Source: Salinibacterium sp. UTAS2018 (GTDB lineage: Bacteria; Actinomycetota; Actinomycetes; Actinomycetales; Microbacteriaceae). From it: DNA of 64,000 nucleotides. Where the stretch lies: the NCBI RefSeq assembly GCF_004118935.1, contig NZ_CP035375.1, forward strand, positions 2,108,001 through 2,172,000. Reading direction: 5' to 3'. Below are positions 30,925 to 63,433 of the stretch, in pieces; position 1 is the first letter of the stretch, and every line of letters begins with the position of its first letter. Made by a program: the position numbers and the translations under genes. Below the pieces are notes generated by a model. That model made no database searches, was not told the origin of the DNA, and worked only from the letters and a program-made list of their open reading frames with translations.

Positions 30925-30926
30925 TC

Positions 30927-35618: not shown

Positions 35619-35652
35619 TTTCGAAATTTGAACACTAGTTCGCTAGCCGAAC
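35619..35652 (-). promoter_or_regulatory. Tandem IclR-type operator upstream of the M24 gene
   Basis: On the minus strand, unit 1 is GTTCG-GCTAG-CGAAC (35652-35638, a perfect inverted repeat) and unit 2 is GTTCA-AATTT-CGAAA (35633-35619), starting 19 bp later. Same layout as at 43796, 52096, 52172 and 55163. Confidence 0.7.
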
Positions 35653-35781
35653 AATTGAGCTGGCGAGATAGTGCAGGAATAGATTCTTTGAGTCGGGCGG
35701 TTGCCTCGATACACCCGAGGAGGGGCGGCGTCGTGAGCACACATGCCGCATGATCGCCGCCCCACCCGCAGGCCAGGTCTG

Positions 35782-37413: not shown

Positions 37414-37486
37414 GTGATCTCCTTTGACGAGCTCACCCGCGGGAAGCGTTGTGAGCGTAGATGTTTGATGTGTAGATGAAGAGGTG

Positions 37487-37524
37487 CTGTTGGGGCCCTG
37501 CCAGGAGGGACACAACCCCAACAG
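37487..37524 (-). terminator. Hairpin just after the oppF-like gene
   Basis: Inverted repeat with arms 37487-37495 and 37516-37524 (nine pairs) and an inner CCCT/AGGG pairing, starting three bases after the oppF stop on the minus strand. Probably lowers transcription into the DUF885 gene. Confidence 0.5.
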
Positions 37525-43946: not shown

Positions 43947-45092
43947 TTAGTCCGCGAAGCGTTCTGGGGAGAAGGGTGAGAGGTCTCGTTCTACGGGAAT
44001 GCCCGTGGCGAGGTCGGCGAGAATGCGCCCCATGAGCGGTCCAGCCGTAAACCCCATGTGCGGGTAGATGCCGACGAAGACCCCGGGGGCCGCGTCGTAC
44101 TCTCCGATGATCGGGAGCAGGTCAGGCGTCGCGTTTCCGATGCCAGCCCACGTGCGAACGACGTGAGCATTCGCGATCGCCGGTGCCACTTTCATGGCGA
44201 CGCGCAGATTGTCCCGGAGCGAATCGGGATTCACTACCCACTCGCCTTCAGCGTTGCGTCGCGCCGGCCAGCCTCCGCCAATCAGGAGCGCGCCGGTGTG
44301 TGCCTGCTTCAGGGTCAGCTTGTCACCGGCGTAGTACACGAGGTGCTTCACCAGGGGCTTGACCGGTTCGGTGGCGCTCACCTGCACGGGCTCGCTCGTG
44401 ACGGGAATGTCGAGGCCGAGCATCCGGCCAATGGAATTCATGCCATCACCGGCTGCCAGCACGATCGACCGAGCACGGATGGTGGTTGCCCCGGCTTCGA
44501 GCTCGTAGCCGTCGCTGGTGCGCGTGATGCTTGTCACGGGCGCACCCAGCGCAAAGCGAGCGCCGTGGTTTTCGGCGGCGCGAGCGAAGGCGGGCGCGGC
44601 AAGAAGGGGGTTGGCTTTGCCCTCGGTGGGCATGTACGAGCCTCCGGACATATCGGGGGAGACCCAGGGGGCAAGTTCTTGCAGTTCAGCTTGGCTGAGC
44701 ATGCGGGAGTTGTAGCCGGCCTCCTGCTCGATCGCGACCTTGCGCGCAATGTCATCGAGTTGGCCCTGAGTAGCGCCGATCAGGATGCCGCCGTTTCGAG
44801 TGACTTCAAGGTCGACTCCGAGCTCGGCGGAGAGCGCATCCCAAAGCTCGAGGGAATCGGTGAGAAACCGCAGGGCGGGGAGGAAACTGCGTGCCCAGTC
44901 TTCGCCACGTTCCATGAACGACGGATGCTGGATCATCCCGTGAAGGCTGCCAGCGTTACGACCGGAGGCCTCGGTGTTGAGGTCTTTGCCGTCGACCAGC
45001 ACGACATCGACGCCGCGCTTGGCTAGTTCGTAGGCGGTCGCAGCGCCGGTAATTCCGCCACCGATGACGGCAACTTCTGCATTCTGTTTCAC
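43947..45092 (-). CDS. DAO-family FAD oxidoreductase, OoxB/HcnC/SoxB-like
   Basis: 381 residues. N-terminal FAD motif VAVIGGGITGAATAYELA followed by TEASGRNAGSLH, a segment typical of the beta subunits of opine oxidase, hydrogen cyanide synthase and heteromeric D-hydroxyproline dehydrogenase. The C-terminal FAD segment is GIYPHMGFTAGP. Such proteins oxidise the C-N bond of glycine, N-substituted amino acids or D-amino acids, usually with an OoxA/HcnB partner; a candidate is encoded at 60707. It follows the second SnoaL-like gene on the same strand. Independent amino-acid oxidase activity is the alternative. Confidence 0.8.
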   Translation of the reverse strand: MKQNAEVAVIGGGITGAATAYELAKRGVDVVLVDGKDLNTEASGRNAGSLHGMIQHPSFMERGEDWARSFLPALRFLTDSLELWDALSAELGVDLEVTRNGGILIGATQGQLDDIARKVAIEQEAGYNSRMLSQAELQELAPWVSPDMSGGSYMPTEGKANPLLAAPAFARAAENHGARFALGAPVTSITRTSDGYELEAGATTIRARSIVLAAGDGMNSIGRMLGLDIPVTSEPVQVSATEPVKPLVKHLVYYAGDKLTLKQAHTGALLIGGGWPARRNAEGEWVVNPDSLRDNLRVAMKVAPAIANAHVVRTWAGIGNATPDLLPIIGEYDAAPGVFVGIYPHMGFTAGPLMGRILADLATGIPVERDLSPFSPERFAD

Positions 45093-45714: not shown

Positions 45715-47208
45715 ATGGTTGAACCACTAGCCCCCCGAACACACTCACTGCTCAGCGACCACAAGGTTCCGCTGGGAATCTTCATCGGGGGTGCCTGGGA
45801 AGAAACCGGCCGCGAGTTCTCGGTAGTTAACCCGTCGACCGGCAGCGTTATCGCCAGCGTGAGCGACGGAGACGCCTCGGATGCCGTACGCGCGCTCGAC
45901 GCCGCCGTCGCCGCGCAAGATGACTGGCGCGCGATGGCGCCTCGTGCTCGCGCAAACCTCTTCCACGCGGCACACCGTCTTCTCGAATCCCGGGCGGATG
46001 CCTTTGCCGACATCATGACGCTCGAGAGCGGAAAGCCGCGAGCAGAGTCCGTGGGCGAATTCGCGCTCTCGATCGGGTTCTTCCAGTGGTACGCCGAGCA
46101 GATCGCCCACATCCACGGCACATACTCGTCGTCGTCGAACGGCGGATTCCGCGTGATGACCACGAAGCAGCCCGTGGGGCCCGCTCTGCTCATCACCCCG
46201 TGGAACTTTCCCATGCTCATGAACGCGCGCAAGGGTGGGGCGGCGCTCGCCGCAGGATGCACCGTGGTGTTCAAGTCGGCAAGCGAGACTCCGCTGACCG
46301 CGGCTCTGTTTGTGGCGACGCTCGAGGAAGCAGGTTTTCCCGCTGGCGTGGTGAACCTCATCCACACGAGCAATTCGGCATCGATCTCGGCGCCGCTGCT
46401 TGCCGACCCGCGACTGCGCAAGGTGAGCTTCACCGGATCGACCGGGGTGGGAAGCACGCTGCTCGAACAGGCCGCTCGCAACATCGTCAACACCTCGATG
46501 GAGCTGGGAGGCGATGGACCGTTTGTTGTACTGGATGACGCGGACGTCGATCTTGCTGTGAGGGAAGCCGTCAATTGCAAGTTCCGCAACGCTGGCCAAG
46601 CCTGCGTCGCCGCCAACCGAATCATTTTGCACCGCGACATCGCCGAGGAATTCACCGAGAAGTTCGTGGCTGCAGCAGGCAAGCTTGAAGTGGGCGACGG
46701 CTTCGATGCGAGCGTCGTGGTTGGGCCGTTGATCAACGCTCGCCAGCGTGACCGCACCGGGCATCTCGTTGAAGACTTCCAAAGTGCCGCTGGCGCGACG
46801 CTGCTGCTTGGCGGCAAGGCGATTGATCGTGACGGTTTCTTCTTCGAGCCGACGGTAATGAGCTTCCCCGACAAGAAGCACGACTTCTGCAACGACGAAA
46901 TCTTTGCGCCGGTCGCCGCGCTCTACACCGTTGACTCTGTTGCCGAGGCGCTTGAATTTGCCAACGACACCCACTACGGCCTGGCGGCATACCTCTTCAC
47001 CCGTGACATTTCGCGGGCGGTCGCGCTGTCAGAACGACTCGACTTCGGAATGGTCGGGGTCAACCGCGGAATCATGGCCGAACCAGCGGCTCCGTTCGGC
47101 GGAGTGAAGTCATCGGGACTGGGCCGCGAGGGTGGCCACGAGGGCCTCGAGGACTTCCTGGAGACGAAGTACATCGCGCTGACAGTTGATGAGTCGAGCT
47201 TCGAATAG
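45715..47208 (+). CDS. NAD(P)-dependent aldehyde dehydrogenase (succinate/2-oxoglutarate semialdehyde type)
   Basis: 497 residues with a complete ALDH active site: Asn164 (TPWNFP), Glu263 (MELGGD) and catalytic Cys297 (NAGQACVA). It resembles GabD-type semialdehyde dehydrogenases. In the context of a DapA-family lyase it could oxidise 2-oxoglutarate semialdehyde, succinate semialdehyde or another carboxylated aldehyde. AGGAAGG precedes ATG 45715. A perfect terminator follows. Confidence 0.87.
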   Translation: MVEPLAPRTHSLLSDHKVPLGIFIGGAWEETGREFSVVNPSTGSVIASVSDGDASDAVRALDAAVAAQDDWRAMAPRARANLFHAAHRLLESRADAFADIMTLESGKPRAESVGEFALSIGFFQWYAEQIAHIHGTYSSSSNGGFRVMTTKQPVGPALLITPWNFPMLMNARKGGAALAAGCTVVFKSASETPLTAALFVATLEEAGFPAGVVNLIHTSNSASISAPLLADPRLRKVSFTGSTGVGSTLLEQAARNIVNTSMELGGDGPFVVLDDADVDLAVREAVNCKFRNAGQACVAANRIILHRDIAEEFTEKFVAAAGKLEVGDGFDASVVVGPLINARQRDRTGHLVEDFQSAAGATLLLGGKAIDRDGFFFEPTVMSFPDKKHDFCNDEIFAPVAALYTVDSVAEALEFANDTHYGLAAYLFTRDISRAVALSERLDFGMVGVNRGIMAEPAAPFGGVKSSGLGREGGHEGLEDFLETKYIALTVDESSFE

Positions 47209-47277: not shown

Positions 47278-48060
47278 TTAGCGCTTGATGTCGCGTGAGA
47301 TCTGCTCGGTCACTTCGAGCAAGCGTGGCAAGAACTTTGACTCGAGCTCTTTCATCGAGGCGCGGGACGCCGGCACGGAGATGTTGACGGCCGCCCATAT
47401 CTTTCCAGCAGCGTCATAGACCGGGGCGGCGACAGCGCGAACTCCGTGCTCGAACTCCTCGTCGTTGATGGTCCAGCCCTGTTCTCCCGCCGTCGCGATG
47501 AGGGCTCGAAGTTCACCTTCATCGGTGATGGTCTTGTTGGTGAGTGCGGGGCGAGGGTAGGTCGCGAAAAAGTCGTCGAGCTCTGCAGGGGAGAGCGCCG
47601 ACAGCAAAAGCCGACCGGTCGATGTGGCAAAAGCGGGGAGTCGGCGACCCACTCCGATGTTCACAGTCATGATTCGGTCTGCGGCGGCACGCGCGACGTA
47701 GACAATCTCACCGCGATCGTACGTGCACGCAGAGCAGGACTCATTGAGTTCTTTGCTGAGTTCCTCCATGTAGTGCTGAGTTACCTCAACCGTCGTTGAC
47801 GACGAGAGGTAGGCGTAGCCGAGTTCGAGAACACGCGGGCGGAGGTAGTAGCGCTTGTCGTCGACTCCGAGGTAGCCCAATGACTCGAGGGTAAGGAGGA
47901 AGCGACGGGTGGCTGCGCGGCTCTGATTGGTGGCGCGAGCGACGTCGGCCATAGAGAGGCGATCATGCCGATCGCTGAATGCCCGAATGACGCGGAGGCC
48001 GCGATCGAGGGACTGGACGAAATCAGCCGCTCCGTTCGCTGGGCTTTCTGGATCGCTCAC
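47278..48060 (-). CDS. IclR-family regulator, PcaR-like
   Basis: 260 residues. N-terminal FVQSLDRGLRVIRAF and HTH (MADVARATNQSRAATRRFLLTLESLGYL, shown in part) place it, like the protein at 32162, in the PcaR/PobR branch. The C-terminal effector domain includes IVYVARAAADRIMTVNIGVGRRLPAFATS (in part). It is divergent from the DapA-like gene and central to the island, so it is the main candidate for binding the tandem GTTCG-N5-CGAAC operators and/or the repeats at 48103-48140. Confidence 0.87.
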   Translation of the reverse strand: MSDPESPANGAADFVQSLDRGLRVIRAFSDRHDRLSMADVARATNQSRAATRRFLLTLESLGYLGVDDKRYYLRPRVLELGYAYLSSSTTVEVTQHYMEELSKELNESCSACTYDRGEIVYVARAAADRIMTVNIGVGRRLPAFATSTGRLLLSALSPAELDDFFATYPRPALTNKTITDEGELRALIATAGEQGWTINDEEFEHGVRAVAAPVYDAAGKIWAAVNISVPASRASMKELESKFLPRLLEVTEQISRDIKR

Positions 48061-48140: not shown

Positions 48141-48249
48141 AACTCGACCGCATAGTGAAGCACTTTGCGTCGATTTTGGCTCCGTGGCGCGGAACTCCCG
48201 TATGCTGTAAATGTTCATTACACGCACACTCGTGCGCAGAGAGGAAACT

Positions 48250-49182
48250 GTGGTCGCCGAACTCCGAGGTAGTTATACCGTCGCCGTAACCCCATTCACC
48301 GCCGACGGCTCGTCAATCGACGTCCCCGCGCTCAAGCGATTCCTTGATTGGCAGCTCGAAGAAAAGGTCCCCGGCATCATCATGCTCGGCACGACCGGCG
48401 AGTTTGTTGCCATCACCGATGACGAGCGTCAGCAGGTCGTCGAGGAGACCGTCAAGCATATCGATGGTCGCATTCCTGTCGTCGTTGGCTCAATGGCCGC
48501 CAGCACGAAGGAAGCGGTTCGTCGCAGTGCTCAGGCTGAAGAGTTGGGCGCCGATGGCCTCATGATTCTTCCTCCCTTCTACTACACGCCGACGGATGAC
48601 GAGATCTTCCGTCACTACAAGGCGATCAGTGAAGCCGTGCAGATTCCGATCATGTTGTACAACAACCCGGTCACCTCGAATGTCGACATGAGCGCCAAGC
48701 TGGTTGCTCGACTCGCCCGCGCTTTTGAGAACGTGCGCTACATCAAGGAATCGAGCCAAGAGCTCGGCCGGGTACGCGACGTGCTCGAAGCCAGCGACGG
48801 CCTCATCAATGTCTTCGCGGGAGAGCGCGTTGTCGACTCCTACCTTCTGGGTGCGGTCGGCTACGTCAACCCGTACGGAAACTACATTCCTCGCGCATCC
48901 GCTGGCTTTGTGCAGCTCGCCGCTGAGGGGCGCTACGAAGAAGCGCGCACGATCCAGCGACTCATTGATGAACTTGACGAGATCATCGCCGAGGGGCACC
49001 CCACGTACGGTCACCAGTGCTACTCGAAGGAGTTGGCTGCTCGCGCAGGCTACCCCGTGGGTACCGTTCGCCCGCCGCTCACGACGTTCGCGCAACTGGG
49101 CGACGAGGGTGAAGAGCGTGTCAGCCGCATTCTCCCGATCATGGAACGGATCGCGCAGCAGTCCACTCACCTGGGCCTGTGA
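48250..49182 (+). CDS. DapA-family lyase/dehydratase (DHDPS/NAL superfamily)
   Basis: 310-residue class I aldolase-fold enzyme. GTTGE (47-51), Tyr137 (IMLYNNP) and the Schiff-base Lys166 (YIKESSQ) are in place. Relatives include dihydrodipicolinate synthase, 5-dehydro-4-deoxyglucarate dehydratase, pyrroline-4-hydroxy-2-carboxylate deaminase and N-acetylneuraminate lyase. Location among catabolic genes argues against a lysine-biosynthetic role. GTG 48250 has GAGGAAA just upstream; the longer frame from 48211 is less likely. Seven bases separate it from the next gene. Confidence 0.8.
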   Translation: MVAELRGSYTVAVTPFTADGSSIDVPALKRFLDWQLEEKVPGIIMLGTTGEFVAITDDERQQVVEETVKHIDGRIPVVVGSMAASTKEAVRRSAQAEELGADGLMILPPFYYTPTDDEIFRHYKAISEAVQIPIMLYNNPVTSNVDMSAKLVARLARAFENVRYIKESSQELGRVRDVLEASDGLINVFAGERVVDSYLLGAVGYVNPYGNYIPRASAGFVQLAAEGRYEEARTIQRLIDELDEIIAEGHPTYGHQCYSKELAARAGYPVGTVRPPLTTFAQLGDEGEERVSRILPIMERIAQQSTHLGL

Positions 49183-49189
49183 TCGACGC

Positions 49190-50173
49190 GTGAATACGAG
49201 CCTCGAGCACGACGGCGAAGCGCCGACCATAGCGCTTATCGGCGTCGGCACAATCGGTATCGGTTGGGCCGTAGTGTTCGCAACGAGTGGCTGCCGTGTT
49301 CGCGTGTACGACTATGAGCCCGCGATGCTTGATCGCGTCATCCCCGCTGTGGAGTTCCGCCTCAACAATCTTGCTGAGGCGGGACTCATCAGCGAATCTC
49401 CCGCGACCGTTCTGGAGCGCATCGTCGTAGCGACATCCCGCGAGGATGTAATTGTGGGTGCCGTGCACGTTCAGGAGAGTGTCACTGAGTCTGTCGAGGT
49501 GAAGAGGGATCTCTTTGCTTGGCTTGATGAGGCGACCGGGCGCGGCGTCACGCTGGCAAGCTCAACGTCGACGATTCCGTCGTCACAGTTCACCGCAGAG
49601 CTTGCCGGGCGCGATCGCTGTCTGGTCGTGCATCCGGCAAACCCGCCCTATCTACTGCGCGTGGCCGAAGTCGTGCCCTCGGAATACACGAGTGATGCAA
49701 CGGTGGCAATAACCGCTGCCCTCCTCAGCTCAGTGCGAATCTCTCCGATCGTCGTGAAGAACGAGATCGAGGGCTTCGTCTTCAATCGGCTGCAAGGGGC
49801 GCTGCTGCGCGAGGCGTATTTTCTCGTCGGCGAGGGTGTCGTTACCCCGCGCGATGTCGACACTCTCGTGCGCGAAGGTCTCGGCAGGCGCTGGTCGATT
49901 ACGGGCCCCTTTGCGACTTCCGAGCTCAACACCCGCGGCGGTACGGCTCAGCATGCCGAAGTCATCGGCGCCGTCTATGCCCGCATCGGAAGCGCTCGCG
50001 GCACCGGTGACCCTTGGATTCCCCAGACCATTGCTTATGTCATGGATGAGATGAATGAGCTCCTTCCCGGTGACAACTGGGAAGCGAACGTACTCCGTCG
50101 CGAGCTCGCCATGATCAAGCTCGAGGGCCTGCGCCACCAAGGCGATGTGCCGAGCGTCATTCTCGAAAGCTAG
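49190..50173 (+). CDS. 3-hydroxyacyl-CoA dehydrogenase-family protein, CRYL1/L-gulonate 3-dehydrogenase-like
   Basis: 327 residues. Rossmann motif LIGVGTIGIGWAVVFA, then HPANPPYLLRVAEVVP, VVKNEIEGFVFNRLQ and EGVVTPRDVDTLVREGLGRRW (in part), a pattern close to lambda-crystallin/L-gulonate 3-dehydrogenase and L-carnitine dehydrogenase rather than fatty-acid enzymes. It probably oxidises a 3-hydroxy acid with NAD. GTG start, cotranscribed with the DapA-like gene. Confidence 0.8.
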   Translation: MNTSLEHDGEAPTIALIGVGTIGIGWAVVFATSGCRVRVYDYEPAMLDRVIPAVEFRLNNLAEAGLISESPATVLERIVVATSREDVIVGAVHVQESVTESVEVKRDLFAWLDEATGRGVTLASSTSTIPSSQFTAELAGRDRCLVVHPANPPYLLRVAEVVPSEYTSDATVAITAALLSSVRISPIVVKNEIEGFVFNRLQGALLREAYFLVGEGVVTPRDVDTLVREGLGRRWSITGPFATSELNTRGGTAQHAEVIGAVYARIGSARGTGDPWIPQTIAYVMDEMNELLPGDNWEANVLRRELAMIKLEGLRHQGDVPSVILES

Positions 50174-53280: not shown

Positions 53281-54348
53281 CTAGCCCCGGGCGGCGGCGT
53301 ACTGATTCGGCCAGCGCGGCTCGGCCCCGAGCTGTTCGGCCGCGACGTTGACCCAGTGCGGGTCGCGCAGCACGGCCCGACCGAGCATGACAGCGTCGGC
53401 CTGGCCGGAGCGAATGATCGTCTCGGCCTGAGTGGCGTCGGTGATGAGGCCGACGGCAGAGGTGGTGATTCCGGAGCCAGCCTTCACCTGGGCAGCGAAC
53501 GGCACCTGGTACCCCGCACCGATCGGGATCGACGTGCGCACAATGCCCCCCGTTGAACAATCGATGAGGTCGACGCCAAGATCTTTCAACACGACAGAAA
53601 GCCGTACCGTGTCGTCGATATCCCAGCCGCCCTCAGCCCAGTCGGTCGCTGACACGCGCACGAAGAGGGGGCGACCGGGCGCCCAGACTTCGCGCACCGC
53701 CGTCACGACTTCGCGGAGCATCCGGGTGCGCCCGTCGAAGTCGCCGCCGTAGCCATCGGTGCGCTGATTCGAGAGCGGTGACAGGAACTGATTGAGAAGG
53801 TAGCCGTGGGCCGCGTGGAGTTCAACAACGTCGAATCCGCAATCGAGTGCTCGTTGGGCTGCCGAAACGAAGTCGCCGGTGATCCGCTCGATCTCGGGGA
53901 TCGTGAGCTCGTGGGGTTCGGGAAGTGTCGAGAACGCAATCGGCGACGGGGCGAGCGTCGACCATCCGCCCTCAGCGGGATCGATGTAACCGGTGCCCGA
54001 CCACGGCGTGGAGGTCGATGCCTTGCGGCCGGAATGCACAAGCTGCACTCCGATGTGAGTGCCCTGTTCGTGAACAAAGTCGACGATGGGTTTCCAGCCG
54101 GCCGCCTGCTCGTCGTTCCAGAGGCCAGTGTCGTGGGGAGACAAGCGGCCTTCGGGGCTGACCGAGGTTGCCTCGGTCAGGATGAGACCGGTTCCTCCCA
54201 TCGCAAACTGTCCGAGATGAATGAGGTGCCAGTTGAGCGGCACGCCATCCGCTCCCGCAGAGTATTGGCACATGGGCGAGACCCACGCGCGGTTCGAGAA
54301 GGTGACGTCTCCGATGGTGAGGGGGCTGAAGAGCTCTGAGGCGCTCAT
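53281..54348 (-). CDS. NADH:flavin oxidoreductase, YqjM-like old yellow enzyme
   Basis: 355-residue FMN barrel. The N-terminal ELFSPLTIGDVTFSNRAWVSPMCQYSA (in part) has the MCQYS variant of the thermophilic-like/YqjM class, the substrate-binding HAAHGYLLNQFLSP carries the catalytic His pair region, and GYGGDFDGRTRMLREV follows. It reduces activated C=C bonds (enoates, nitro compounds) with NAD(P)H. ATG 54348 lies in an ATGA overlap with the SDR gene. Confidence 0.87.
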   Translation of the reverse strand: MSASELFSPLTIGDVTFSNRAWVSPMCQYSAGADGVPLNWHLIHLGQFAMGGTGLILTEATSVSPEGRLSPHDTGLWNDEQAAGWKPIVDFVHEQGTHIGVQLVHSGRKASTSTPWSGTGYIDPAEGGWSTLAPSPIAFSTLPEPHELTIPEIERITGDFVSAAQRALDCGFDVVELHAAHGYLLNQFLSPLSNQRTDGYGGDFDGRTRMLREVVTAVREVWAPGRPLFVRVSATDWAEGGWDIDDTVRLSVVLKDLGVDLIDCSTGGIVRTSIPIGAGYQVPFAAQVKAGSGITTSAVGLITDATQAETIIRSGQADAVMLGRAVLRDPHWVNVAAEQLGAEPRWPNQYAAARG

Positions 54349-55103
54349 CGAACGTAGCTCGCGCCGTTGACGTCGAGCGTGGCGCCGGTGAGGTGACGCA
54401 GGCGCCCCTCGCACAGCATGCCCACCAGAGTCGCGATGTCCGTCGGGGGAACCCATTCCTTCATCGCGAGGCTCTCGGTGATGCGGTCGACTCCGCCAGA
54501 ACTCAGTGCCGCGGTCTGGCTCATCTCGGTCTGAACGACGCCAGGAGCGATGAGGTACGCGAGCACGTTCTCTGCGGCGTAGGCGCGAGCGACAGTCTTG
54601 AGCATGGCGGCGTAGGCCGCTTTCGACGCCGAGTATCCGACGAGGCGCGAGCTGGAGGCTCCGCGCTGGGCAGCCCAGCTGGAGATGCCGACGATGACGC
54701 CGCCGCCGTTCTCGAGATGGTGTTGGGTGGCAAGACGGGTCAGGTCGGATGGTGCGCGAGTGTTGACCTGAAGGGCGAGATCCCAGGCGGCGTTCCATTC
54801 CGCTTCCGGGGCATCGAACTCCACCTCGGGCATCACGGCGGCGTTGCACACCACGGCGTCCACACGGCCGTGCCAGTCGACGGCGGTCTTCCAAAGCTGA
54901 GCCGCCGCCGCTGGGTCGGAGAAGTCTGCCGAGACGAGAAGTCTCTCGGTGGCGGATGCGGTGGCCTCTTCTGCGCCGGCAGCAGAGGTGTTGTATTGGG
55001 CGATCACGTGCGCGCCGCGCTCACTCAGTTCACGAGCGATGCTGGCCCCGATGCCGCGCGAGGCGCCGGTCACGAGAATATTCTTGCCTGCGAGATAATC
55101 CAT
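54345..55103 (-). CDS. Short-chain dehydrogenase/reductase (FabG-like)
   Basis: 252 residues: cofactor motif TGASRGIG (near residue 12), NAAV in place of the usual NNAG, catalytic Ser (GISSWAA), Tyr and Lys (YSASK). Typical classical SDR oxidising or reducing a hydroxyl/keto group with NAD(P). GGAGGAAA precedes ATG 55103. It is divergent from the aminotransferase operon and shares its control region, so it probably acts in the same pathway. Confidence 0.85.
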   Translation of the reverse strand: MDYLAGKNILVTGASRGIGASIARELSERGAHVIAQYNTSAAGAEEATASATERLLVSADFSDPAAAAQLWKTAVDWHGRVDAVVCNAAVMPEVEFDAPEAEWNAAWDLALQVNTRAPSDLTRLATQHHLENGGGVIVGISSWAAQRGASSSRLVGYSASKAAYAAMLKTVARAYAAENVLAYLIAPGVVQTEMSQTAALSSGGVDRITESLAMKEWVPPTDIATLVGMLCEGRLRHLTGATLDVNGASYVR

Positions 55104-55162
55104 GGTTTCCTCCGCGGAAGCTTTAATCGTCAACTATCGCGATTCCGTCGTTGATTTGGTAG

Positions 55163-55237: not shown

Positions 55238-56629
55238 ATGTCGCACCAGTCCACGGCTTCCCTCCAGGAGATGGATCGTCACAACCTGTTTCACCCGTTC
55301 ACGGCGCTGAAGTCGTTCGACGCAACAGGACCAGCCTTGACGATCGTGAGCGGATCAGGATCCACCCTGACGGACTCCACTGGCGGAACATACCTCGACG
55401 CCATGGCGGGATTGTGGTGCGTCAATATCGGCTACTCTCGCCCCGAAATGGCCGAAGCGCTCGCCAAGCAGGCCAATACTCTCCCGTACTATCACGCGTT
55501 CTCCGGAATGGGCACCGACCTTCCTGCCCGCCTCGCGAAACGCCTCACCGACATGGCGCCTGTACCGGTATCTCGCGTGTTCTTTGGCAACAGCGGCTCC
55601 GATGCCAATGACACTCAAGCCAAGCTCGTCTGGTACTACAACAACGTGCGCGGACTGCCCAACAAGAAGAAGATCATCTCCCGCACCCGGGGCTATCACG
55701 GGGTCACCGTACTGAGCGCGGGATTGACCGGGCTCACGAACCTGCACGATGGCTTTGACCTGCCGCTGCCGATGATTCGCCACGTACGCCCGCCGCACCG
55801 TCTGTGGGAAGCGGAACCCGGCATGACCGACGCCGACTTCGTTGCCGTTCTTGCTCGGGAACTCGAAGAGCTCATCCTCGCCGAAGGCCCCGACACCGTT
55901 GCCGCCTTCATCGCGGAGCCGATGCAGGCTGCCGGCGGAGTCATCATCCCGCCCGCCGGATACTTCGAGGCGATTCAGGCTGTGTTGAACAAGTACGACG
56001 TCCTTCTCATCGCGGATGAAGTTGTGTGTGGCTTCGGGCGTCTCGGCGTCGACTTCGGAACAACCGCCTTCGGAATGAAGCCCGACCTCATCACCGTGGC
56101 CAAGGGCATCACGTCGGCCTACGTTCCCCTCTCGGCCTGCCTCGTGACTCCGAAAGTCTGGGACGTCGTGATGGCCGGACAGGACCTCTACGGAGGATTC
56201 GGGCACGGCTACACCTACTCCGCCCACCCGCTTGCCGCCGCAGCCGCCCTCACCAACCTCGACATCATCGAGAACGAGAACCTCACCGAGCGTGCCGCTA
56301 CGGTGGGCGCGCACATGCACCGTCGCCTCCAAGAAGAGTTCGCCGGGCATCCGAACGTCGGAGAAATCCGCGGACAAGGTCTCGTCGGTGCAGTGGAGTT
56401 CGTGCAGAGCACCGCACCCATGAAGGCCTTCGACCCCGGCATGGCATTCGCTGCCAAGGTCACCAAGCGCAGCCTGGCGCACGGCGTTATCACTCGTGCC
56501 CTTCCTGCCGCCGACACGATCTCGTTCTCCCCGCCGTTCACCACCACGGAAGAAGAAATCGACGCCATGGTCGCGGGAACCCGACGGGCACTCGACGACG
56601 TAGTGAAAGAAGAAGGACTGATTGGCTAA
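55238..56629 (+). CDS. Class III (omega) aminotransferase
   Basis: 463-residue fold-type I PLP enzyme of the aspartate aminotransferase family class III group (beta-alanine:pyruvate/taurine:pyruvate type). The PLP-contacting Asp260 is in LIADEVVCGFGRLG, and Lys289 in TVAKGITSAYVPL forms the internal aldimine. Such enzymes usually act on terminal or beta/omega amino groups. First gene of a coupled operon with AcoX-like, GcvPA/PB-like and iron-sulfur flavoprotein genes. Overlaps the next gene by eight bases. Confidence 0.87.
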   Translation: MSHQSTASLQEMDRHNLFHPFTALKSFDATGPALTIVSGSGSTLTDSTGGTYLDAMAGLWCVNIGYSRPEMAEALAKQANTLPYYHAFSGMGTDLPARLAKRLTDMAPVPVSRVFFGNSGSDANDTQAKLVWYYNNVRGLPNKKKIISRTRGYHGVTVLSAGLTGLTNLHDGFDLPLPMIRHVRPPHRLWEAEPGMTDADFVAVLARELEELILAEGPDTVAAFIAEPMQAAGGVIIPPAGYFEAIQAVLNKYDVLLIADEVVCGFGRLGVDFGTTAFGMKPDLITVAKGITSAYVPLSACLVTPKVWDVVMAGQDLYGGFGHGYTYSAHPLAAAAALTNLDIIENENLTERAATVGAHMHRRLQEEFAGHPNVGEIRGQGLVGAVEFVQSTAPMKAFDPGMAFAAKVTKRSLAHGVITRALPAADTISFSPPFTTTEEEIDAMVAGTRRALDDVVKEEGLIG

Positions 56630-57749
56630 AACCCTTTCCACGGTGGTGCGGGTTGGCGTTATCGTCAACCCGATCGCCGGTATGGGTGGAGCGGTCGCAC
56701 TTCACGGAACCGATGGCGATGCTTCTGAACAGGCGCGCGCCCTCGGCGCGTTGCCGGGAGCTGAGGAACGGATGCAGCGGGCGCTCGCCGTGCTGCGACG
56801 CGAGCATCCGGCCGCGATCGACATCGTGGCCGCGGCCGGTGCAATGGGCGAGAACAGTGTTCGCGCCAGCGGGCTGACCGTGGCACGCACCGTCGGAGTC
56901 GCGAGCAACACCACTTCGGCGGCCGACACTCGTGCTGCTGCGATCTCGATGCGAGATGCCGACGTTGACCTCGTGCTTTTCGCGGGTGGCGACGGAACAG
57001 CGGCCGATATCGTGGCTGAGCTCGGAACAGCAATTACGGTGCTCGGCACTCCCAGCGGAGTGAAGATGCACTCGGGAGTCTTCGCGCGCACTCCGGAGCG
57101 CGCCGGTGAGATCGCCGCCGAATATCTCGCCGCCGGCGAGCGTCGCGTTTCGTTCGAGACTGAAGTTCTGGATGTCGCCCCGGGGGAGCATGACATCAGC
57201 GACATTGCGGTGGCACGAGTTCCGCACGCGACGGCCGGAGTTCAAGGCCCGAAGGTGGCCCGTCCCGACAGCTCGGAGGCCGACATCCCGGCGCTCGGTG
57301 CCGACATCGCGGCCAGCATGACGGCGGGCACCAGTTACATTCTTGGCCCGGGCACGACCGTGGGCAGCATCCTTAGTGCATTAGGGCTCGAGGGCACGCG
57401 CAACGGTTGTGACATCGTCGCCAATGGGGCACTCGTCACGGTCGACGCTTCGGAAGAGACGTTGTTCGAGCATGTCTCCACCCACCCCGGCAGCGTTCTC
57501 ATCCTTGGCGTTGTCGGCGGGCAAGGGTTCTTGCTTGGCCGCGGCAATCAGCAGATCAGTCCGCGAGTCCTCTCTCTGATCGACGAGGAGAACATCGTGA
57601 TCGTCGCCGCGCAAAACAAGATCGATGCCTTGCAACCCCCTCAACTTCACGTCGACCTCGGTCGGGCTGAGCCATACCTTGCACTGCACGGGTATCGCCG
57701 CATCCGCACGTCGCCGACACGCAGCACTGTCCTCAGAATCACCAACTAG
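56622..57749 (+). CDS. NAD-kinase-fold protein, AcoX-like
   Basis: 375 residues. N-terminal VGVIVNPIAGMGG and FAGGDGTAADIV carry the GGDGT motif of the NAD/diacylglycerol kinase superfamily; overall it resembles AcoX proteins encoded beside acetoin dehydrogenase. AcoX has no established biochemical role; it may phosphorylate a small molecule or nucleotide. TTG 56622 follows an AGAAGGA site at good spacing; GTG 56643 is an alternative. It sits between the aminotransferase and the P-protein genes, all on one transcript. Confidence 0.75.
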   Translation: MAKTLSTVVRVGVIVNPIAGMGGAVALHGTDGDASEQARALGALPGAEERMQRALAVLRREHPAAIDIVAAAGAMGENSVRASGLTVARTVGVASNTTSAADTRAAAISMRDADVDLVLFAGGDGTAADIVAELGTAITVLGTPSGVKMHSGVFARTPERAGEIAAEYLAAGERRVSFETEVLDVAPGEHDISDIAVARVPHATAGVQGPKVARPDSSEADIPALGADIAASMTAGTSYILGPGTTVGSILSALGLEGTRNGCDIVANGALVTVDASEETLFEHVSTHPGSVLILGVVGGQGFLLGRGNQQISPRVLSLIDEENIVIVAAQNKIDALQPPQLHVDLGRAEPYLALHGYRRIRTSPTRSTVLRITN

Positions 57750-57771
57750 TTCCCGCTGGAAGGAAGCGAAA

Positions 57772-59178
57772 ATGACTCCGCTCACCCCTCATCCCTATAT
57801 GGGAAACTCAACCGAGGCCATTCACGAGAGAATGCTCGCCGCGGTTGGCGCCTCGTCGATTGAGGAGCTGTTCGAGCAGATTCCTGCCGAGCACTACGGC
57901 ACGCAGGGCGAGACCCTGCCCGACGGGATTCTGTCGGAGGCAACGCTCGAGCTCCACGTCGATGGCATTCTGCGGGCGAACAAGAACACTCGCGACAACC
58001 TAAGTTTCTTGGGTGCCGGTAGCTGGCAGCATCATGTTCCGGCGGTCTGCGATGAAATTGCGGGACGAAGCGAATTTCTTACCTCGGTGTGGGGAACTCC
58101 ATCGTCTGACCACGGACGCAACCAGGCGTGGTTCGAATTCTCGTCTCAGCTTGGCGAACTCCTCGACCTCGAGTTCGTGGGCCTCCCGGTCTACAGCTGG
58201 GGATCGGCGGGTGGCAACGCATTGCGCATGGCGGCTCGCCTCACGGGACGCAACCGGGTCATTGTCACGAAGGCCATCGATCCCGAGCGTCGTGCCGTTA
58301 TCGAAAGCTACTGCGGTACTCAGGGGTCATCGCGAGCCCTCGAGATTATCGACCTCGATTACGATGCCGAGACCGGCCACACCGATCTCGACCAGCTCGC
58401 CGCGCAGCTTGATGACACCATTGCTGCCGTCTACATCGACACCCCCAACCACCTTGGAGTTTTCGAAGCTCAAGCGGCCGAAATCACCGCGCGGGCGCAC
58501 GCTGTTGGCGCGGAGATGATCGTGGGAACCGATCCGCTCAGCCTCGGAATTGTCGCATCGCCCGCCAGCTATGGTGCGGACATCGTGATCGGCTCCACAC
58601 AGCCTCTCGGCGTTCCTCTTAATGCGGGTGGTGGAGTCGGCGGTTTCATCGCGACCCGTGACGAAGAACGGTACGCCCGCGAGTTTCCCACGCTGCAGGT
58701 CAGCATCACAGAAACGCTGGTTCCCGGTGAGCGTGCCTTCGGCTTGACGCTCTTTGGCCAGAGCTCCTACGGTGCACGCGAAGAAGGTAACGACTGGACG
58801 GGTAACTCGGTCTACCTGTGGGCAATTCGCAACACCGTCTACATGGCGCTCATGGGTCCTGCGGGATTCACTGAAGTGGGAAGCACCATCATCTCGAACG
58901 CCCACGAAACCGCGAAGCGTATCTCCGGTATCGACGGCGTCACCGTGCGCTTTGATTCCGGCTTCTTCAAAGAGTTCGTCGTGGACTTCACCGGCACCGG
59001 GCTGACCGTCGCCGACATCAACGAGAAGCTGCTCGCCGAGGGTATCTTCGGCGGGAAAGACCTCAGCGGTGATTTCCCTGAGCTCGGCCAGAGCGCGCTC
59101 TACTGTGTGACAGAAGTGCACACAGAGGACGACATCGAGCGATTGATCAGCTCTCTAGGAAAGGCGGTCACGCGATGA
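57772..59178 (+). CDS. Divergent glycine dehydrogenase (decarboxylating) subunit 1-like, GcvPA-type
   Basis: 468 residues matching the non-catalytic alpha half of two-subunit P-protein: NSTEAIHERMLAAVGASSIEELFEQIP, NLSFLGAGSWQHHVPAV and RSEFLTSVWG align with GcvPA. However the canonical YTPYQPE-Q loop is replaced by WGTPSSDHGRNQ, and the (M/L)YDGATA segment by PVYSWGSAGGNA. These regions line the glycine/lipoamide site in known P-proteins, so a different substrate is likely. GGAAGG precedes ATG 57772. Overlaps the partner gene by four bases. Confidence 0.75.
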   Translation: MTPLTPHPYMGNSTEAIHERMLAAVGASSIEELFEQIPAEHYGTQGETLPDGILSEATLELHVDGILRANKNTRDNLSFLGAGSWQHHVPAVCDEIAGRSEFLTSVWGTPSSDHGRNQAWFEFSSQLGELLDLEFVGLPVYSWGSAGGNALRMAARLTGRNRVIVTKAIDPERRAVIESYCGTQGSSRALEIIDLDYDAETGHTDLDQLAAQLDDTIAAVYIDTPNHLGVFEAQAAEITARAHAVGAEMIVGTDPLSLGIVASPASYGADIVIGSTQPLGVPLNAGGGVGGFIATRDEERYAREFPTLQVSITETLVPGERAFGLTLFGQSSYGAREEGNDWTGNSVYLWAIRNTVYMALMGPAGFTEVGSTIISNAHETAKRISGIDGVTVRFDSGFFKEFVVDFTGTGLTVADINEKLLAEGIFGGKDLSGDFPELGQSALYCVTEVHTEDDIERLISSLGKAVTR

Positions 59179-60707
59179 CCCGCAGCGAAATTCGTCCCTT
59201 CCACGCCGCACGCTGGAGCGAACCCGTCATCATGGAAATGGGTTCCCCCGGCCGTCGTGGAACAGTACCGCCCACCTCGTGGGCGAGCGCGGATGCCGCC
59301 GGGCTCGTTCCTGCCGGGTTGCATCGCACCGAAGCGCCGGGCCTTCCCGAGATGTCGGAACCCGATGTTCTTCGTCACTACCTTCACCTCTCCCAGCAGA
59401 CGATGGGAATGGTGGGCATCAGCCTGTTCGGTACCTGCACCATGAAGTACAACCCCCGCATCAGTGAGCGCATCATCGCCCGCCCGTATGTTGCGGATGT
59501 GCATCCGGCCCAAGATCCGTCGACGATGCAGGGTGTTCTTCAGATCGTGGATGAGTTCTCTCAGGCGCTCACGTCGCTCTCGGGAATGCCGGCCTTCACC
59601 TTCCAACCCGGCGGTGGAGCCGCAGCGGCATTCACCCACGCGGCCGTCACTCGCGCGTACCACGCCTCGCGCGGCGAGCTCGGGCAGCGCACTGAAATCA
59701 TCACCACTGCTCAGTCGCACCCGTCGAGCCCCGCCACGGCTTCCGCCGCGGGCTTCGACATCATCACCCTTCCGGTTGAAGAGGATGGATATCCGTCGGT
59801 TGAGGCGCTGCGGGCCGCGGTCAGTGATCGCACAGCAGCCCTCATGGTCAACAACCCCGACGATATGGGCATCTACAACCCCCAGATTAAGGAGTGGGTC
59901 GACATCGTTCATGAAGCGGGCGGGCTCTGCTTCTACGATCACGCCAACTTCAACGGCGTGATGACTCGTTTGCGCGCTGCCGAGCTGGGTTTCGATGCGT
60001 GCATGTTCATGCTGCACAAGACCTTCGGCGTTACCAAGGGCGGCGGCGGCCCGGCTGTCGGCGCCTACGGATGCTCCGAGGCTCTAGCGCCATTCTTGCC
60101 GGGGCCGCGCATCGAGAAGGTCGACGACACGTACACTCTCGTCGAGTCGCCGTCGAGCCTGGGCCGCATCCGGGAATACCTCGGAAACGTGCCGCAGGTT
60201 ATTGCGGCGTACACCTGGCTCAAGGCGATGGGTGGCAATGGCTTGCGCGAAGCCGCCGACCTGTCGGTGCTCACTAACAACTACATGGAGAAGCGCATCC
60301 TCGAGATTCCTGGAATCACGAAGGCGTTCCCCGAAATGACCAAGCGTCGGCTCGAGATGACGCGCTTTAGTCTGGGCGACATCACCGCCGAGACGGGCGT
60401 GACGGCGGTAGACATTCAGAACCGGATGACTGACTTCGGCATCGATGCTTACTGGTTGAGCCACGAACCGTGGATTGTTCCCGAGCCCTTCACCCCGGAA
60501 GCCGGCGAAGCGTGGTCGATTGAAGATATCGACTACTGGATCGATGTGCTCGCTCACGTCGTGGACGAAGCTCGCAGTGATGCCGAGCTCGTGAAGACCT
60601 CACCCCATAATCAGGTCGTGGCGCGTCCGAACGGAGCGGGGCTTGATGACCCCGAGCGTTGGGCAACAACGTGGCGCGCTTATCAGCGAAAAAACGGTAA
60701 CCACTAG
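59175..60707 (+). CDS. Divergent glycine dehydrogenase (decarboxylating) subunit 2-like, GcvPB-type
   Basis: 510 residues, the PLP-bearing beta half. FGTCTMKYNPRISERI is a P-protein hallmark; His281-Lys282 in MLHKTFGVTKGGGGP gives the Schiff-base lysine and glycine-rich loop; FYDHANFNGVM matches the YDGANLNA region. The canonical QPAAGAHGE block reads QPGGGAAAA and the AHGTNPA block reads SHPSSPA, so residues near the cofactor differ from true glycine decarboxylases. A decarboxylase or C-C lyase acting on another amino acid is plausible. gcvH and gcvT are not in the window. Confidence 0.77.
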   Translation: MTRSEIRPFHAARWSEPVIMEMGSPGRRGTVPPTSWASADAAGLVPAGLHRTEAPGLPEMSEPDVLRHYLHLSQQTMGMVGISLFGTCTMKYNPRISERIIARPYVADVHPAQDPSTMQGVLQIVDEFSQALTSLSGMPAFTFQPGGGAAAAFTHAAVTRAYHASRGELGQRTEIITTAQSHPSSPATASAAGFDIITLPVEEDGYPSVEALRAAVSDRTAALMVNNPDDMGIYNPQIKEWVDIVHEAGGLCFYDHANFNGVMTRLRAAELGFDACMFMLHKTFGVTKGGGGPAVGAYGCSEALAPFLPGPRIEKVDDTYTLVESPSSLGRIREYLGNVPQVIAAYTWLKAMGGNGLREAADLSVLTNNYMEKRILEIPGITKAFPEMTKRRLEMTRFSLGDITAETGVTAVDIQNRMTDFGIDAYWLSHEPWIVPEPFTPEAGEAWSIEDIDYWIDVLAHVVDEARSDAELVKTSPHNQVVARPNGAGLDDPERWATTWRAYQRKNGNH

Positions 60708-62440
60708 TGCGAATTCATAGCAAGGGGTTCGGCGACGCTCCCCGCGCGATCACCGTCAACTACAACGGGGAAACGGTCGAGGGCCAAGCCGGTGACACGG
60801 TAGCCTCGGCGCTGATTGCGGCGGGCGATCCCGCATTGCGGGTAGCCCGAGAAGGCGACAAGCGCGGGGTCTTCTGCGGAATGGGTGTGTGCGCTGAGTG
60901 CACGGTCATGATCGAGGGCAAGGGCGAGAGTCTCGCGTGCATGACTCCGGCAATGGATGGCATGGTTGTCGACTCTGCTGAGCCGCGGCTCGATCTGCCC
61001 AGCTTGGATGAGGGTGCGAGCCTTCCGGAGTCGACGCTAACGCCCGACGTTGTCGTGATCGGTGCTGGCCCATCGGGGCTTGCCGCCGCAGCGGTGGCGG
61101 CCGAGGGCGGGCTCGATGTCATCCTGCTCGATGAGCGCGGCAAACTGGGTGGCCAGTATTACAAGCAGCCTGCGCCAGACTTCGACCTTGATGAGCAGCG
61201 CCTCGATGGCCAATATCAGCGCGGGCGGGCTCTGATTGAGCGCGCCCGGGCTTCGGGCGTGCGCATCCTCGACCGTGCCAAGGTCTGGGGAGCGTTTGCT
61301 CCCGATCACATCGTTGCCGCGAGTCCGGTAGAACGGTGGGTGATTCGGGCCAAGCGCGTCGTTCTCGCGACCGGCGCGTACGAGCGTGGTGTTCCGATGC
61401 CAGGCTGGACCCTGCCCGGAGTCATGACGACGGGAGCCGCCCAAACGCTCTCTCGGTCGTATCAGGTCTCGCCGGGTCAGCGCGTGTTGGTGGCCGGAAA
61501 CGGACCGCTGAACATGCAGGTCGCGGCGGAGCTGGCGGCGGCAGGAGCGCGCGTTGTCGCGCTTGTTGAATTGGCTCGTCCGGCACAGGTGACCAACGCT
61601 CTTTCGGTGGCGACGATGGCGTTCTCGTCTCCCGGACTCATTGCCGATGGGGCAAAGTACGGCCTTGCCCTCGCGCGAGCTCGCGTTCCGATGATTACGG
61701 GGAGCGCGGTCGTACGTATGACCGGCGATGAAAACGGAGTGACCGGGGCGGTCGTTGCGCAGTTGCGCGCCGACGGAACCCCCATCGCGGACACCGAGCG
61801 CAGCTTCGACGTCGACGCAGTGTGCATGGGGTACGGCTTCTTGCCATCGAATGAGATCGCGCGGATGCTCGGCTGTCGCCACTCCTGGGACGATTCCCTC
61901 AAGACGCTCGTGGTGGAGCGCGACGCTGACGGTCGCACTTCGGTGCCGGAGGCGTTTGTGATTGGTGACTCTGCTCAAGTGCACGGTGCAAAGGTTGCGC
62001 AAGCGCGGGGCATCATCGCCGGTTCCTCGATTGTCGCCGAGCTCGGTGGAGCGTCATCGAGTGCTCACGCCAGTGAACTCAGTGCTGCTCGCCGAAACTT
62101 GGCGCGCAACCTGAGGTTCCAGAACTCCCTCAACCGAGTCTTCGCTGCGCCAGTACTCACGATCGAGCTGGCGACCCCCGAAACGACGGTATGCCGCTGT
62201 GAGAGTCTCAGCCTTGAGACGGTAGCGCGCGGCGTCGACGAACTGACGTCGAGCGCCGGTGCCAGCAAGCGAGTATCGCGAGTGGGCATGGGCAAGTGTC
62301 AGGGGCGTTATTGCGGTCCGGTTGTGGTGGCTCTTTCCGCAGAGCGAAGCGGTAATCCTGTGGATGAACGGTCGGGGTTTGCCCCGCAGGTTCCGTTCAA
62401 GCCGACCCCTATTTCTGTCATCGCGTCACCCGAACAGTAG
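60707..62440 (+). CDS. Iron-sulfur FAD oxidoreductase, fused HcnA-HcnB / OoxA-like subunit
   Basis: 577 residues. An N-terminal [2Fe-2S] domain has Cys57, Cys62, Cys65 and Cys78 (CGMGVCAEC...C). It is joined to a pyridine nucleotide-disulfide-type flavoprotein (VVVIGAGPSGLAAAA from about residue 113; VLVAGNGPLNMQVA for the second nucleotide) and a C-terminal BFD-like site (VCRCE and KCQGRYC). This combines HcnA and HcnB, or OoxA with its small subunit, in one chain. It lacks the folate-binding C-terminus of SoxA. Partner beta subunits in this family are DAO-type flavoproteins such as that at 43947. GTG start overlaps the gcvPB stop by one base. Confidence 0.82.
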   Translation: MRIHSKGFGDAPRAITVNYNGETVEGQAGDTVASALIAAGDPALRVAREGDKRGVFCGMGVCAECTVMIEGKGESLACMTPAMDGMVVDSAEPRLDLPSLDEGASLPESTLTPDVVVIGAGPSGLAAAAVAAEGGLDVILLDERGKLGGQYYKQPAPDFDLDEQRLDGQYQRGRALIERARASGVRILDRAKVWGAFAPDHIVAASPVERWVIRAKRVVLATGAYERGVPMPGWTLPGVMTTGAAQTLSRSYQVSPGQRVLVAGNGPLNMQVAAELAAAGARVVALVELARPAQVTNALSVATMAFSSPGLIADGAKYGLALARARVPMITGSAVVRMTGDENGVTGAVVAQLRADGTPIADTERSFDVDAVCMGYGFLPSNEIARMLGCRHSWDDSLKTLVVERDADGRTSVPEAFVIGDSAQVHGAKVAQARGIIAGSSIVAELGGASSSAHASELSAARRNLARNLRFQNSLNRVFAAPVLTIELATPETTVCRCESLSLETVARGVDELTSSAGASKRVSRVGMGKCQGRYCGPVVVALSAERSGNPVDERSGFAPQVPFKPTPISVIASPEQ

Positions 62441-62452
62441 AAAGAGGCACGC

Positions 62453-63433
62453 GTGAGAGTTGTTGTCATTGGAGCGACGGGACACGTCGGCGGCTATCTG
62501 ATTCCCGAGCTTGTAGGGTCGGGCCACGATGTTGTCGCGGTGAGTCGCACAGCAACTCCGCGCTACCGCCAGCACGAGGCGTGGGATTCGGTTGAGCATG
62601 TCATGGTCGACCGCGAGGCTGGCGAAACGGCCGGCAGCTTCGCTGACGACATTGCGGCGCTGAACGCCGATGTCGTCATCGACATGATCTGCTTCACTCC
62701 GGAGTCAGCCGCGCACCTCGTCGAGGGGCTTCGAGGGCGCGTTCAGCGCTTCATCATGTGCAGCACAATTTGGGTGAAGGGTCGCTTGTCGGCGGTGCCC
62801 GCGGATGAAGACGTCGTGAGTGAGCCCTGGGGCGATTACGGCGTCCTCAAGGCGGCGATTGAAGAACTCTTACGCCTGGAGTCGCTGCGGCCTGACGGGC
62901 TCCCGAGCACCGTCATCCGCCCGGGCCAGATTTGTGGGCCAGGCTGGGCCGTCATCAACCCCCAGGGGCACGGCGGCCTTGACGTGTGGGAGACGCTCGC
63001 CGCCGGCGAACCGCTAGCGCTGCCGAACTTCGGGCTCGAAACGCTTCACCACGTTCACGCGAGTGATGTCGCGCAAGTGTTTCAGTTGGCTCTGGAGCGA
63101 GAAACCGCTCCGGCCTTCGACGTCTTCAACGCCGTTGCGGCGCGTGCCAGTAACCTTCGCGGGTTGGCGGCGGCGATCTCTCAGCGCTTCGGTCACGAAA
63201 TCACCTATGACTTTCTCCCGTTCGAGAGCTTTCGCGAACGAGTGACACCCAAGCAAGCATCCACGTCGTTCGAGCACATCACTCGAAGCCATGTCATGAG
63301 TATCGAACGCGCGCAGACCGAATTGGGCTATCGCCCGCGCTTCACATCAGAAGAAGCCGTGGCATCATCCGTTGGCTGGCTGTGCGCAACGGGTGGGCTA
63401 TCAGCAAAGGCCGCCGAGCGGTGGCTGAGTTAA
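62453..63433 (+). CDS. NAD-dependent epimerase/dehydratase family protein
   Basis: 326 residues, extended SDR fold. Cofactor motif VVIGATGHVGGYLIPEL at the N-terminus, ICFTP and STIWVKG strands, an atypical YGVLKAAIEE block in place of the YxxxK catalytic motif (Y and K in YGVLK), and VIRPGQICGPG. Substrate unknown. A GTG start with AGAAAGAGG upstream, 12 bases after the iron-sulfur flavoprotein; last gene of the coupled operon. Confidence 0.75.
   Translation: MRVVVIGATGHVGGYLIPELVGSGHDVVAVSRTATPRYRQHEAWDSVEHVMVDREAGETAGSFADDIAALNADVVIDMICFTPESAAHLVEGLRGRVQRFIMCSTIWVKGRLSAVPADEDVVSEPWGDYGVLKAAIEELLRLESLRPDGLPSTVIRPGQICGPGWAVINPQGHGGLDVWETLAAGEPLALPNFGLETLHHVHASDVAQVFQLALERETAPAFDVFNAVAARASNLRGLAAAISQRFGHEITYDFLPFESFRERVTPKQASTSFEHITRSHVMSIERAQTELGYRPRFTSEEAVASSVGWLCATGGLSAKAAERWLS

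Follow-up and report, generated by a model that had tools for sequence, protein, structure and literature searches.

A GcvPA/GcvPB clade paired with an AcoX-like kinase in Salinibacterium sp. UTAS2018 and other prokaryotes is probably not a glycine decarboxylase

We describe a three-gene core, AcoX-GcvPA-GcvPB, which lies in a six-gene operon of Salinibacterium sp. UTAS2018 and encodes an AcoX-like kinase together with two subunits related to the P-protein of the glycine cleavage system. The operon is located in a stretch of 64,000 nucleotides (the window; positions 2108001-2172000 of the 2,995,446-base single-contig genome). The results of comparison with related loci give good support to the conclusion that this GcvPA/GcvPB pair does not serve glycine cleavage; glycine dehydrogenase, the name given in databases, is probably a misnomer, and the pair probably acts on another amino acid. 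A wider proposal, which we regard as evenly balanced between right and wrong, is that the pair represents a second, unrecorded line of P-proteins, namely a lipoate-free heterodimer for a non-glycine amino acid, paired with AcoX almost without exception, spread horizontally through Actinomycetota, Pseudomonadota and partly haloarchaea, and annotated as glycine dehydrogenase in the records seen. If true, this would add a new activity to a well-studied enzyme family, provide a test case for a P-protein losing its need of the lipoyl H-protein, and open a second biochemical context for the search for the substrate of AcoX, a kinase for which none is known. Seven annotated plasmid records label the genes gcvPA/gcvPB, "aminomethyl-transferring glycine dehydrogenase"; consequently, metabolic models would credit these genomes with a glycine decarboxylase for which the sequences give no support.

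All six open reading frames (ORFs) are found on the same strand at 55238-63433, with gaps of at most 22 bases and overlaps of at most 8 bases (Table 1), as a preliminary description of the window had it, and the gene families named there (aminotransferase, AcoX-like protein, GcvPA, GcvPB and a flavoprotein) are borne out by Pfam and NCBIfam matches. The aminotransferase and AcoX genes overlap by 8 bases, the likely start of GcvPA is the ATG at 57772 (giving the 22-base gap after AcoX), GcvPA and GcvPB (hereafter PA and PB) overlap by 4 bases, PB and the HcnAB-like gene by 1 base, and a gap of 12 bases precedes the epimerase gene. The operon contains neither gcvH nor gcvT, which also agrees with the description; the sole gcvH match in the host genome lies ~0.65 Mb away, within a separate gcvT-gcvH-gcvP set whose GcvP is a fused protein of 974 amino acids (aa). 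The window PA and PB are 24% and 26% identical, respectively, to this fused GcvP.

The pair belongs to the same two-subunit P-protein family as the canonical split glycine decarboxylase, and the P-protein of Thermus thermophilus (1wyt) is its best PDB match, but compared with eight canonical split pairs the identity is 29-33% for PA and 32-39% for PB. A phylogenetic tree was built from PB only, with 53 rows: 36 of the clade that includes the window protein (clade I), 8 of a sister group (clade II) and 9 canonical ones. Each of the three groups occupies one side of a branch with support of 100/99 to 100/100; clade I is supported at 100/99, and clades I and II are separated from the canonical rows with support of 100/100 and a stem of 1.84 changes per column, the canonical sample being small and including one row (L104) on a long branch. 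A phylogeny placing the pair inside the canonical glycine decarboxylases, which the preliminary description had named as evidence against its proposal, was thus not seen. Similarity scores likewise leave a clean gap between clade members and other proteins in a survey of 396 Actinomycetota genomes (host included), which scored 3 to 5 first-look candidates per genome: PB matches at E<=1e-110 reach 894-967 bits in the host and four other genomes and 616 bits in one more, and the rest do not exceed 405 bits. Among plasmid records there were 159 PB matches; the 40 listed fall into 8 with an identity of 52-64% and 32 with no more than 39%.

Canonical P-protein differs from the window clade in more than tree position. 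We scored as canonical-invariant every column kept in at least 7 of 8 canonical rows; the Deinococcus locus L097, which has canonical motifs, is not among the eight canonical rows and comparison loci. By this measure clade I (99 PA and 97 PB rows, among them same-genome pieces and the duplicate loci L107, L108, L110, L111, L112 and L121) has lost 28 such columns in PA and 47 in PB. The PA stretch REQHIRR(D/E)KATSNIC, which we take to be the R373/K376 interface of human GLDC, changes from REQHIRR...KATSNIC to QSSYGAR...NDWTG. Its R, E, Q, H and I are shared by all eight canonical rows, whereas at least 98 of the 99 clade I rows have other residues there, mostly QSSYG, and SNI becomes DWT. The R373 position holds Arg in all eight canonical rows and in 6 of the 99 clade I rows; the K376 position is variable among canonical rows too (K in 5/8). 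A study of human GLDC describes a modelled H-protein interface with salt bridges formed by R373 and K376 (PMC7259800). A further PA motif, YTPYQPE, contains two GLDC active-site tyrosines, Y161 and Y164, and reads VWG-TPS in clade I. The first tyrosine is present in 8/8 canonical and 8/8 clade II rows and in 0/99 clade I rows (V 88, E 8, I 3), and the second, also 8/8 in canonical rows, falls in a gap in 99/99 clade I and 8/8 clade II rows. In PB, His182, Asp255 and the pyridoxal phosphate (PLP) lysine, Lys282, are kept in 97/97 clade I rows, as is the HKT motif at that lysine (H281-K282-T283), and all 97 have Lys288 where the canonical rows have His. The window clade is a separate clade that lacks the modelled H-docking motif and the active-site tyrosine pair.

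Conservation of gene content was assessed in 90 clade I loci, consisting of the best 80 of 370 candidates from a scan of genome contigs together with 8 plasmid and 2 genome loci; the six duplicate loci listed above, whose contigs match named ones exactly in length, were removed before counting, and genes were counted by BLAST of all ORFs. In 81 of the loci the sequence extends over 3.5 kb upstream of PB; all of these have PA and 80 have AcoX, the one without it being Natronosalvus (L013), where AcoX lies ~54 kb away on the plasmid. Where both genes are present, AcoX is no more than 600 bp from PA in 84 of 87 loci, and it adjoins PA/PB in 9 of 9 clade II loci. By contrast with the canonical comparison loci, where gcvH is found in 7/8 and gcvT in 6/8, the clade I loci show gcvH in 0/90 and gcvT in 1/90. 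Conservation of the six-gene order across genomes, which the preliminary description had proposed to look for, is not seen: AcoX-PA-PB is kept, the class III aminotransferase (AT3) family is present in 53/90 loci, the HcnAB family in 47/90 and the epimerase in 2/90. The last count rules out the six-gene operon as a conserved unit, and the recurrent unit is AcoX-GcvPA-GcvPB.

The same core emerges from whole-genome surveys. In the 396 Actinomycetota genomes, again with 3 to 5 first-look candidates scored in each, AcoX matches at E<=1e-30 occur just in the host and the same five genomes that hold a PB of clade I or II. This shared distribution, together with the short AcoX-PA distances, rules out a chance gene set. 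It also weakens the use of AcoX as a pointer to a lipoyl-dependent complex, which the preliminary description had adopted. Among 397 Pseudomonadota genomes (including the centre genome, picked for its module) the AcoX family is found in 45 and the PB clade in 4, all four of which have AcoX within ~3 kb; since every PB-clade genome has AcoX and many more have AcoX, PA/PB goes with AcoX and AcoX has other contexts too. Within the genus of the window, just 3 of 26 other genomes have the AcoX gene, and 8 plasmid records (among the matches listed) hold the PB clade, which suggests that the module is sporadic and probably mobile. A single plasmid of Paracoccus aminophilus carries acoX, gcvPA/gcvPB and the aminotransferase gene, and a Rhodococcus jostii RHA1 plasmid carries the core. 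Close relatives of the window AcoX protein were found in Rhodoglobus and Salinibacterium. Clade II (PB at ~600 bits) is present in the family of the host; a single Pseudomonadota match (631 bits) is assigned to it on score only. PA/PB/AcoX modules of both clades occur together in one genome of the window's genus (G024; L106, L107). In two loci the clade II module lies directly 3' of a GH42 beta-galactosidase gene identified by Pfam (L109:7096-9303 and L115:12062-14719), and genes of similar size occupy that position in some other clade II loci.

The window AcoX shares PF01513, PF20143 and the GGDGT motif with the AcoX of acetoin operons and the predicted ATP-NAD kinase family. GGDGT is invariant in 30 rows, and structure comparison for a NAD kinase-type fold gave weak matches. 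In acetoin operons AcoX is likewise the operon partner of a cofactor-dependent enzyme, but here the partner is a PLP-dependent P-protein pair rather than acetoin dehydrogenase. One report describes acoX as critical for acetoin dehydrogenase activity (PMC10943186). Ten AcoX-family loci lacking the PB clade were hand-picked from 41 in Pseudomonadota, and seven of them (L122, L123, L125, L126, L128, L129, L131) have pdxB within ~5 kb of the AcoX-family gene, in three cases as the next gene; by NCBIfam four of the seven pdxB assignments exceed the curated cut-off and three fall below it, one of these three being cut by the end of the stretch. The product of pdxB, 4-phosphoerythronate dehydrogenase, acts in vitamin B6 synthesis. 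A link of the AcoX kinase family to PLP is therefore possible, and the family may serve PLP chemistry more widely.

Our tentative reading, held with somewhat less than even confidence, is that PA/PB is a stand-alone, H-protein-independent PLP decarboxylase of a non-glycine amino acid, followed by an aminotransferase and an aldehyde dehydrogenase (ALDH). The gene content, the clade, the missing canonical motifs and the linkage to AcoX are observed; the decarboxylation, the order of the steps and the role of the kinase are all inferred. The diverged heterodimer would act without the lipoyl H-protein and decarboxylate a non-glycine amino acid to an amine; the class III aminotransferase would turn the amine into an aldehyde; and a dehydrogenase resembling succinate-semialdehyde dehydrogenase would turn the aldehyde into an acid, as in the gamma-aminobutyrate (GABA) route. 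Further genes of the island, for 3-hydroxyacyl-CoA dehydrogenase-like (3HAD), CoA-transferase and thiolase enzymes, may serve to drain the acid, and the AcoX-like kinase may phosphorylate the substrate or a cofactor of the PA/PB pair. In favour of the scheme, AT3 is conserved to the same degree as PB, and the distances of AT3 and ALDH track those of PB. On a Gemmobacter plasmid the genes after AcoX-PA-PB encode a permease, a short-chain dehydrogenase (SDR), an acyl-CoA ligase and, fourth after PB, a copper amine oxidase, with no AT3 match in the 29.5-kb stretch; it is possible that the oxidase replaces the aminotransferase there. The preliminary suggestion of a repurposed P-protein in a catabolic route is upheld as regards the P-protein and its catabolic setting, by the position in the PB tree, the lost H-docking motif and the separate gcv system of the host; it falls where it treats the six genes as a unit. 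Its order of steps, transamination or oxidation before decarboxylation, is less economical than decarboxylation, transamination and oxidation, both orders being putative. The combination had not been recognised as a described pathway, and we found no publication on the AcoX-GcvPA-GcvPB gene set or on such a pathway among the open-licence papers listed.

Several observations weigh against this decarboxylation-transamination-oxidation scheme. The counts are not independent, since close relatives make up much of the set of 90 loci. No AT3 was found in 37 of the 90 loci, and 18 of these span 19 kb or more. In 13 loci, most of them from Acidimicrobiia, PB is followed by an HcnA-DapA-3HAD block, and just one of the 13 has AT3. 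The amine oxidase of the Gemmobacter plasmid is a single case. In nine clade II loci (mean 19.6 kb) AT3 and ALDH were not found and DapA was found once; the island therefore belongs to clade I, any coupling to AT3 and ALDH would be confined to clade I, and our confidence in the scheme is lowered accordingly. Both subunits exceed the NCBIfam cut-offs for glycine dehydrogenase (PRK04366 and PRK00451), and six PA rows keep the Arg at the R373 position. The predicted PB structure, with a mean local confidence score (pLDDT) of 65, is too poor for the pocket to be read, and the mapping of motifs to functions derives from the modelling of human GLDC (PMC7259800) and not from a structure of clade I.

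Three other explanations compete with the decarboxylase scheme. It is very unlikely that the pair has remained a glycine decarboxylase, using the chromosomal H-protein, T-protein and lipoamide dehydrogenase as its partners and supplying the island with one-carbon units. Such a role would suit the retained PLP-site residues, the scores above the glycine dehydrogenase cut-offs, the gcvH of the host and the existence of a canonical-type pair without adjacent gcvH/gcvT in Deinococcus (L097), but it is hard to reconcile with the loss of the modelled H-docking motif and both active-site tyrosines in nearly all 99 PA rows, with the gcvH and gcvT counts in clade I as opposed to canonical loci, with a separate clade on a long stem, or with a host that already has gcvT, gcvH and gcvP. 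The canonical P-protein needs an acceptor, and the pair might instead decarboxylate or cleave an amino acid and pass the PLP-bound fragment to an acceptor other than GcvH, a small molecule or a protein, for example in a decarboxylative condensation, with AcoX priming the acceptor by phosphorylation. We consider this unlikely. AcoX is indeed near-constant (80/81, and 9/9 in clade II), more so than the aminotransferase, but no conserved carrier protein was recognised among the clustered neighbours, where clustering covered ORFs of at least 110 aa and a small carrier could be missed, and no precedent is known to us. Two of the neighbour clusters, probably antisense ORFs of PA and PB, were disregarded.

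Rather unlikely, in our judgement, is the third possibility, that PA/PB performs other PLP chemistry (retro-aldol cleavage, elimination or alpha-carbon transamination) on an intermediate made by the HcnABC-like oxidase and the DapA-family enzyme, with a pathway logic like that of hydroxyproline breakdown. It draws on the presence of the DapA, HcnAB and DAO families in 49, 47 and 47 of the 90 loci, on the HcnA-DapA-3HAD block after PB in 13 loci, on a DapA-family conservation almost like that of PB (median 63%, 43 loci), and on a remodelled substrate pocket, with His changed to Lys288 in 97/97 rows. To our knowledge, the P-protein relatives characterised so far decarboxylate, which counts against it, as does the weak tracking of PB by HcnA distances (rho 0.23, paralogues pooled).

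Beyond the core, AcoX-PA-PB often lies inside a catabolic island of genes for aldehyde dehydrogenase, IclR, DapA-family, 3HAD and HcnAB/HcnC-like oxidase proteins, in Actinomycetota and Pseudomonadota. In the host the island extends from mid-window to beyond the window end (Table 1). ATP-binding cassette (ABC) transporter genes also lie upstream of the operon, with the DAO, ALDH, IclR, DapA, 3HAD, Old Yellow Enzyme family (OYE) and SDR genes, and past the window end there are OYE, DapA, a fused FAD protein, an amino-acid ABC transporter, SDR and 3HAD.

Table 1. Features of the operon and the surrounding island in the window (window positions; counts are of the 90 clade I loci)
Feature	Position	Strand	Details
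pcaI-pcaJ-thiolase-PcaR-like set	29480-32968		beta-ketoadipate type CoA transferase, thiolase, regulator
M24 peptidase and DUF885 protein beside dipeptide-type ABC transporter	34319-37521		
FAD oxidoreductase, DAO family, HcnC/OoxB-like	43947..45092	-	PF01266 216 bits; family in 47/90
ALDH, succinate-semialdehyde-dehydrogenase-like	45715..47208	+	PF00171 513 bits; TIGR01780 479 bits, below cut-off 646; 34/90
IclR regulator, PcaR/PcaU/PobR subfamily	47278..48060	-	TIGR02431 299 bits, cut-off 285; IclR in 44/90
DapA-family lyase/hydrolase	48211..49182	+	PF00701 186 bits; family in 49/90
3HAD, 3-hydroxyacyl-CoA/carnitine-dehydrogenase-like	49190..50173	+	PF02737 144 bits; GTG start inferred; family in 49/90
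OYE flavoprotein	53281..54336	-	PF00724 255 bits; 20/90
SDR, divergent from operon	54345..55133	-	PF13561 132 bits; SDRs, a common family, in 55/90
Class III (omega) aminotransferase, AT3	55238..56629	+	463 aa; PF00202 290 bits
AcoX-like / "ATP-NAD kinase family" protein	56622..57749	+	375 aa; TTG start; GGDGT motif kept; PF01513 63.3 bits and PF20143 37.6 bits, both over cut-off
GcvPA-like subunit	57772..59178	+	468 aa; PF02347 163 bits; NCBIfam PRK00451 425 bits, cut-off 364
GcvPB-like subunit	59175..60707	+	510 aa; PLP lysine K282; NCBIfam PRK04366 491 bits, cut-off 441
HcnAB/OoxA-like oxidoreductase	60707..62440	+	577 aa; Fer2_4 (PF13510), then FAD/NAD-binding domains (PF07992, Pyr_redox_2)
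NAD-dependent epimerase/dehydratase, outside conserved core	62453..63433	+	326 aa; PF01370 56.8 bits; 2/90

When the count is limited to the 62 clade I loci that span 19 kb or more, AT3 is found in 44, SDR in 41, IclR in 38, DAO-family in 37, DapA, HcnA and 3HAD in 34 each, ALDH in 30 and OYE in 18. None of AT3, IclR, DapA, HcnA and 3HAD was found in the 8 canonical gcv loci (mean 8.3 kb) or the 10 AcoX-without-PB loci (mean 12.9 kb), both sets of controls being shorter than the clade I loci and the left-out L097 having a class III aminotransferase. The median identity to the window protein is 65% for PB (90 loci), 64% for AT3 (51 loci), 63% for DapA (43 loci) and 59% for PA, followed by a lower group with HcnA and 3HAD at 45%, ALDH and IclR at 42% and AcoX at 41%. 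For AT3 the identity ranges from 28 to 94% in the 51 loci measured and is at least 45% in 50 of them. Correlation of distance matrices with that of PB gives rho of 0.69 for PA, 0.58 for AT3, 0.57 for 3HAD, 0.55 for ALDH, 0.51 for AcoX and 0.23 for HcnA (the last with pooled paralogues); correlations other than that of 3HAD were matched in none of 200 permutations, shared species history contributes to them, and the 3HAD median and rho were taken with the window's own protein as reference.

The Fer2_4 and FAD domains joined in one gene at 60707-62440, together with the DAO-family gene at 43947-45092, resemble HcnABC, opine oxidase and heterotetrameric sarcosine oxidase-type enzymes, and the two proteins may form one enzyme. 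A point of difference is that the Pfam matches of the window Fer2_4 protein include no aminomethyltransferase domain. Hydroxyproline-like, aromatic and peptide-derived substrates were weighed from the neighbour families, and none has decisive support.

The left-out locus L097, on a plasmid of Deinococcus sp. QL22, has canonical-motif gcvPA/gcvPB followed by genes for a MOSC-domain protein and a class III aminotransferase; gcvH and gcvT were not found in its 8.4-kb stretch, and it is perhaps another departure from glycine cleavage. CoA-transferase genes occur in 13 of the 90 related loci and DUF885 genes in 7. An IclR/PcaR reading of the island, with beta-ketoadipate end products, is a lead only, and the M24 and DUF885 genes beside a dipeptide-type transporter hint at a substrate that may be delivered in peptide or amide form.

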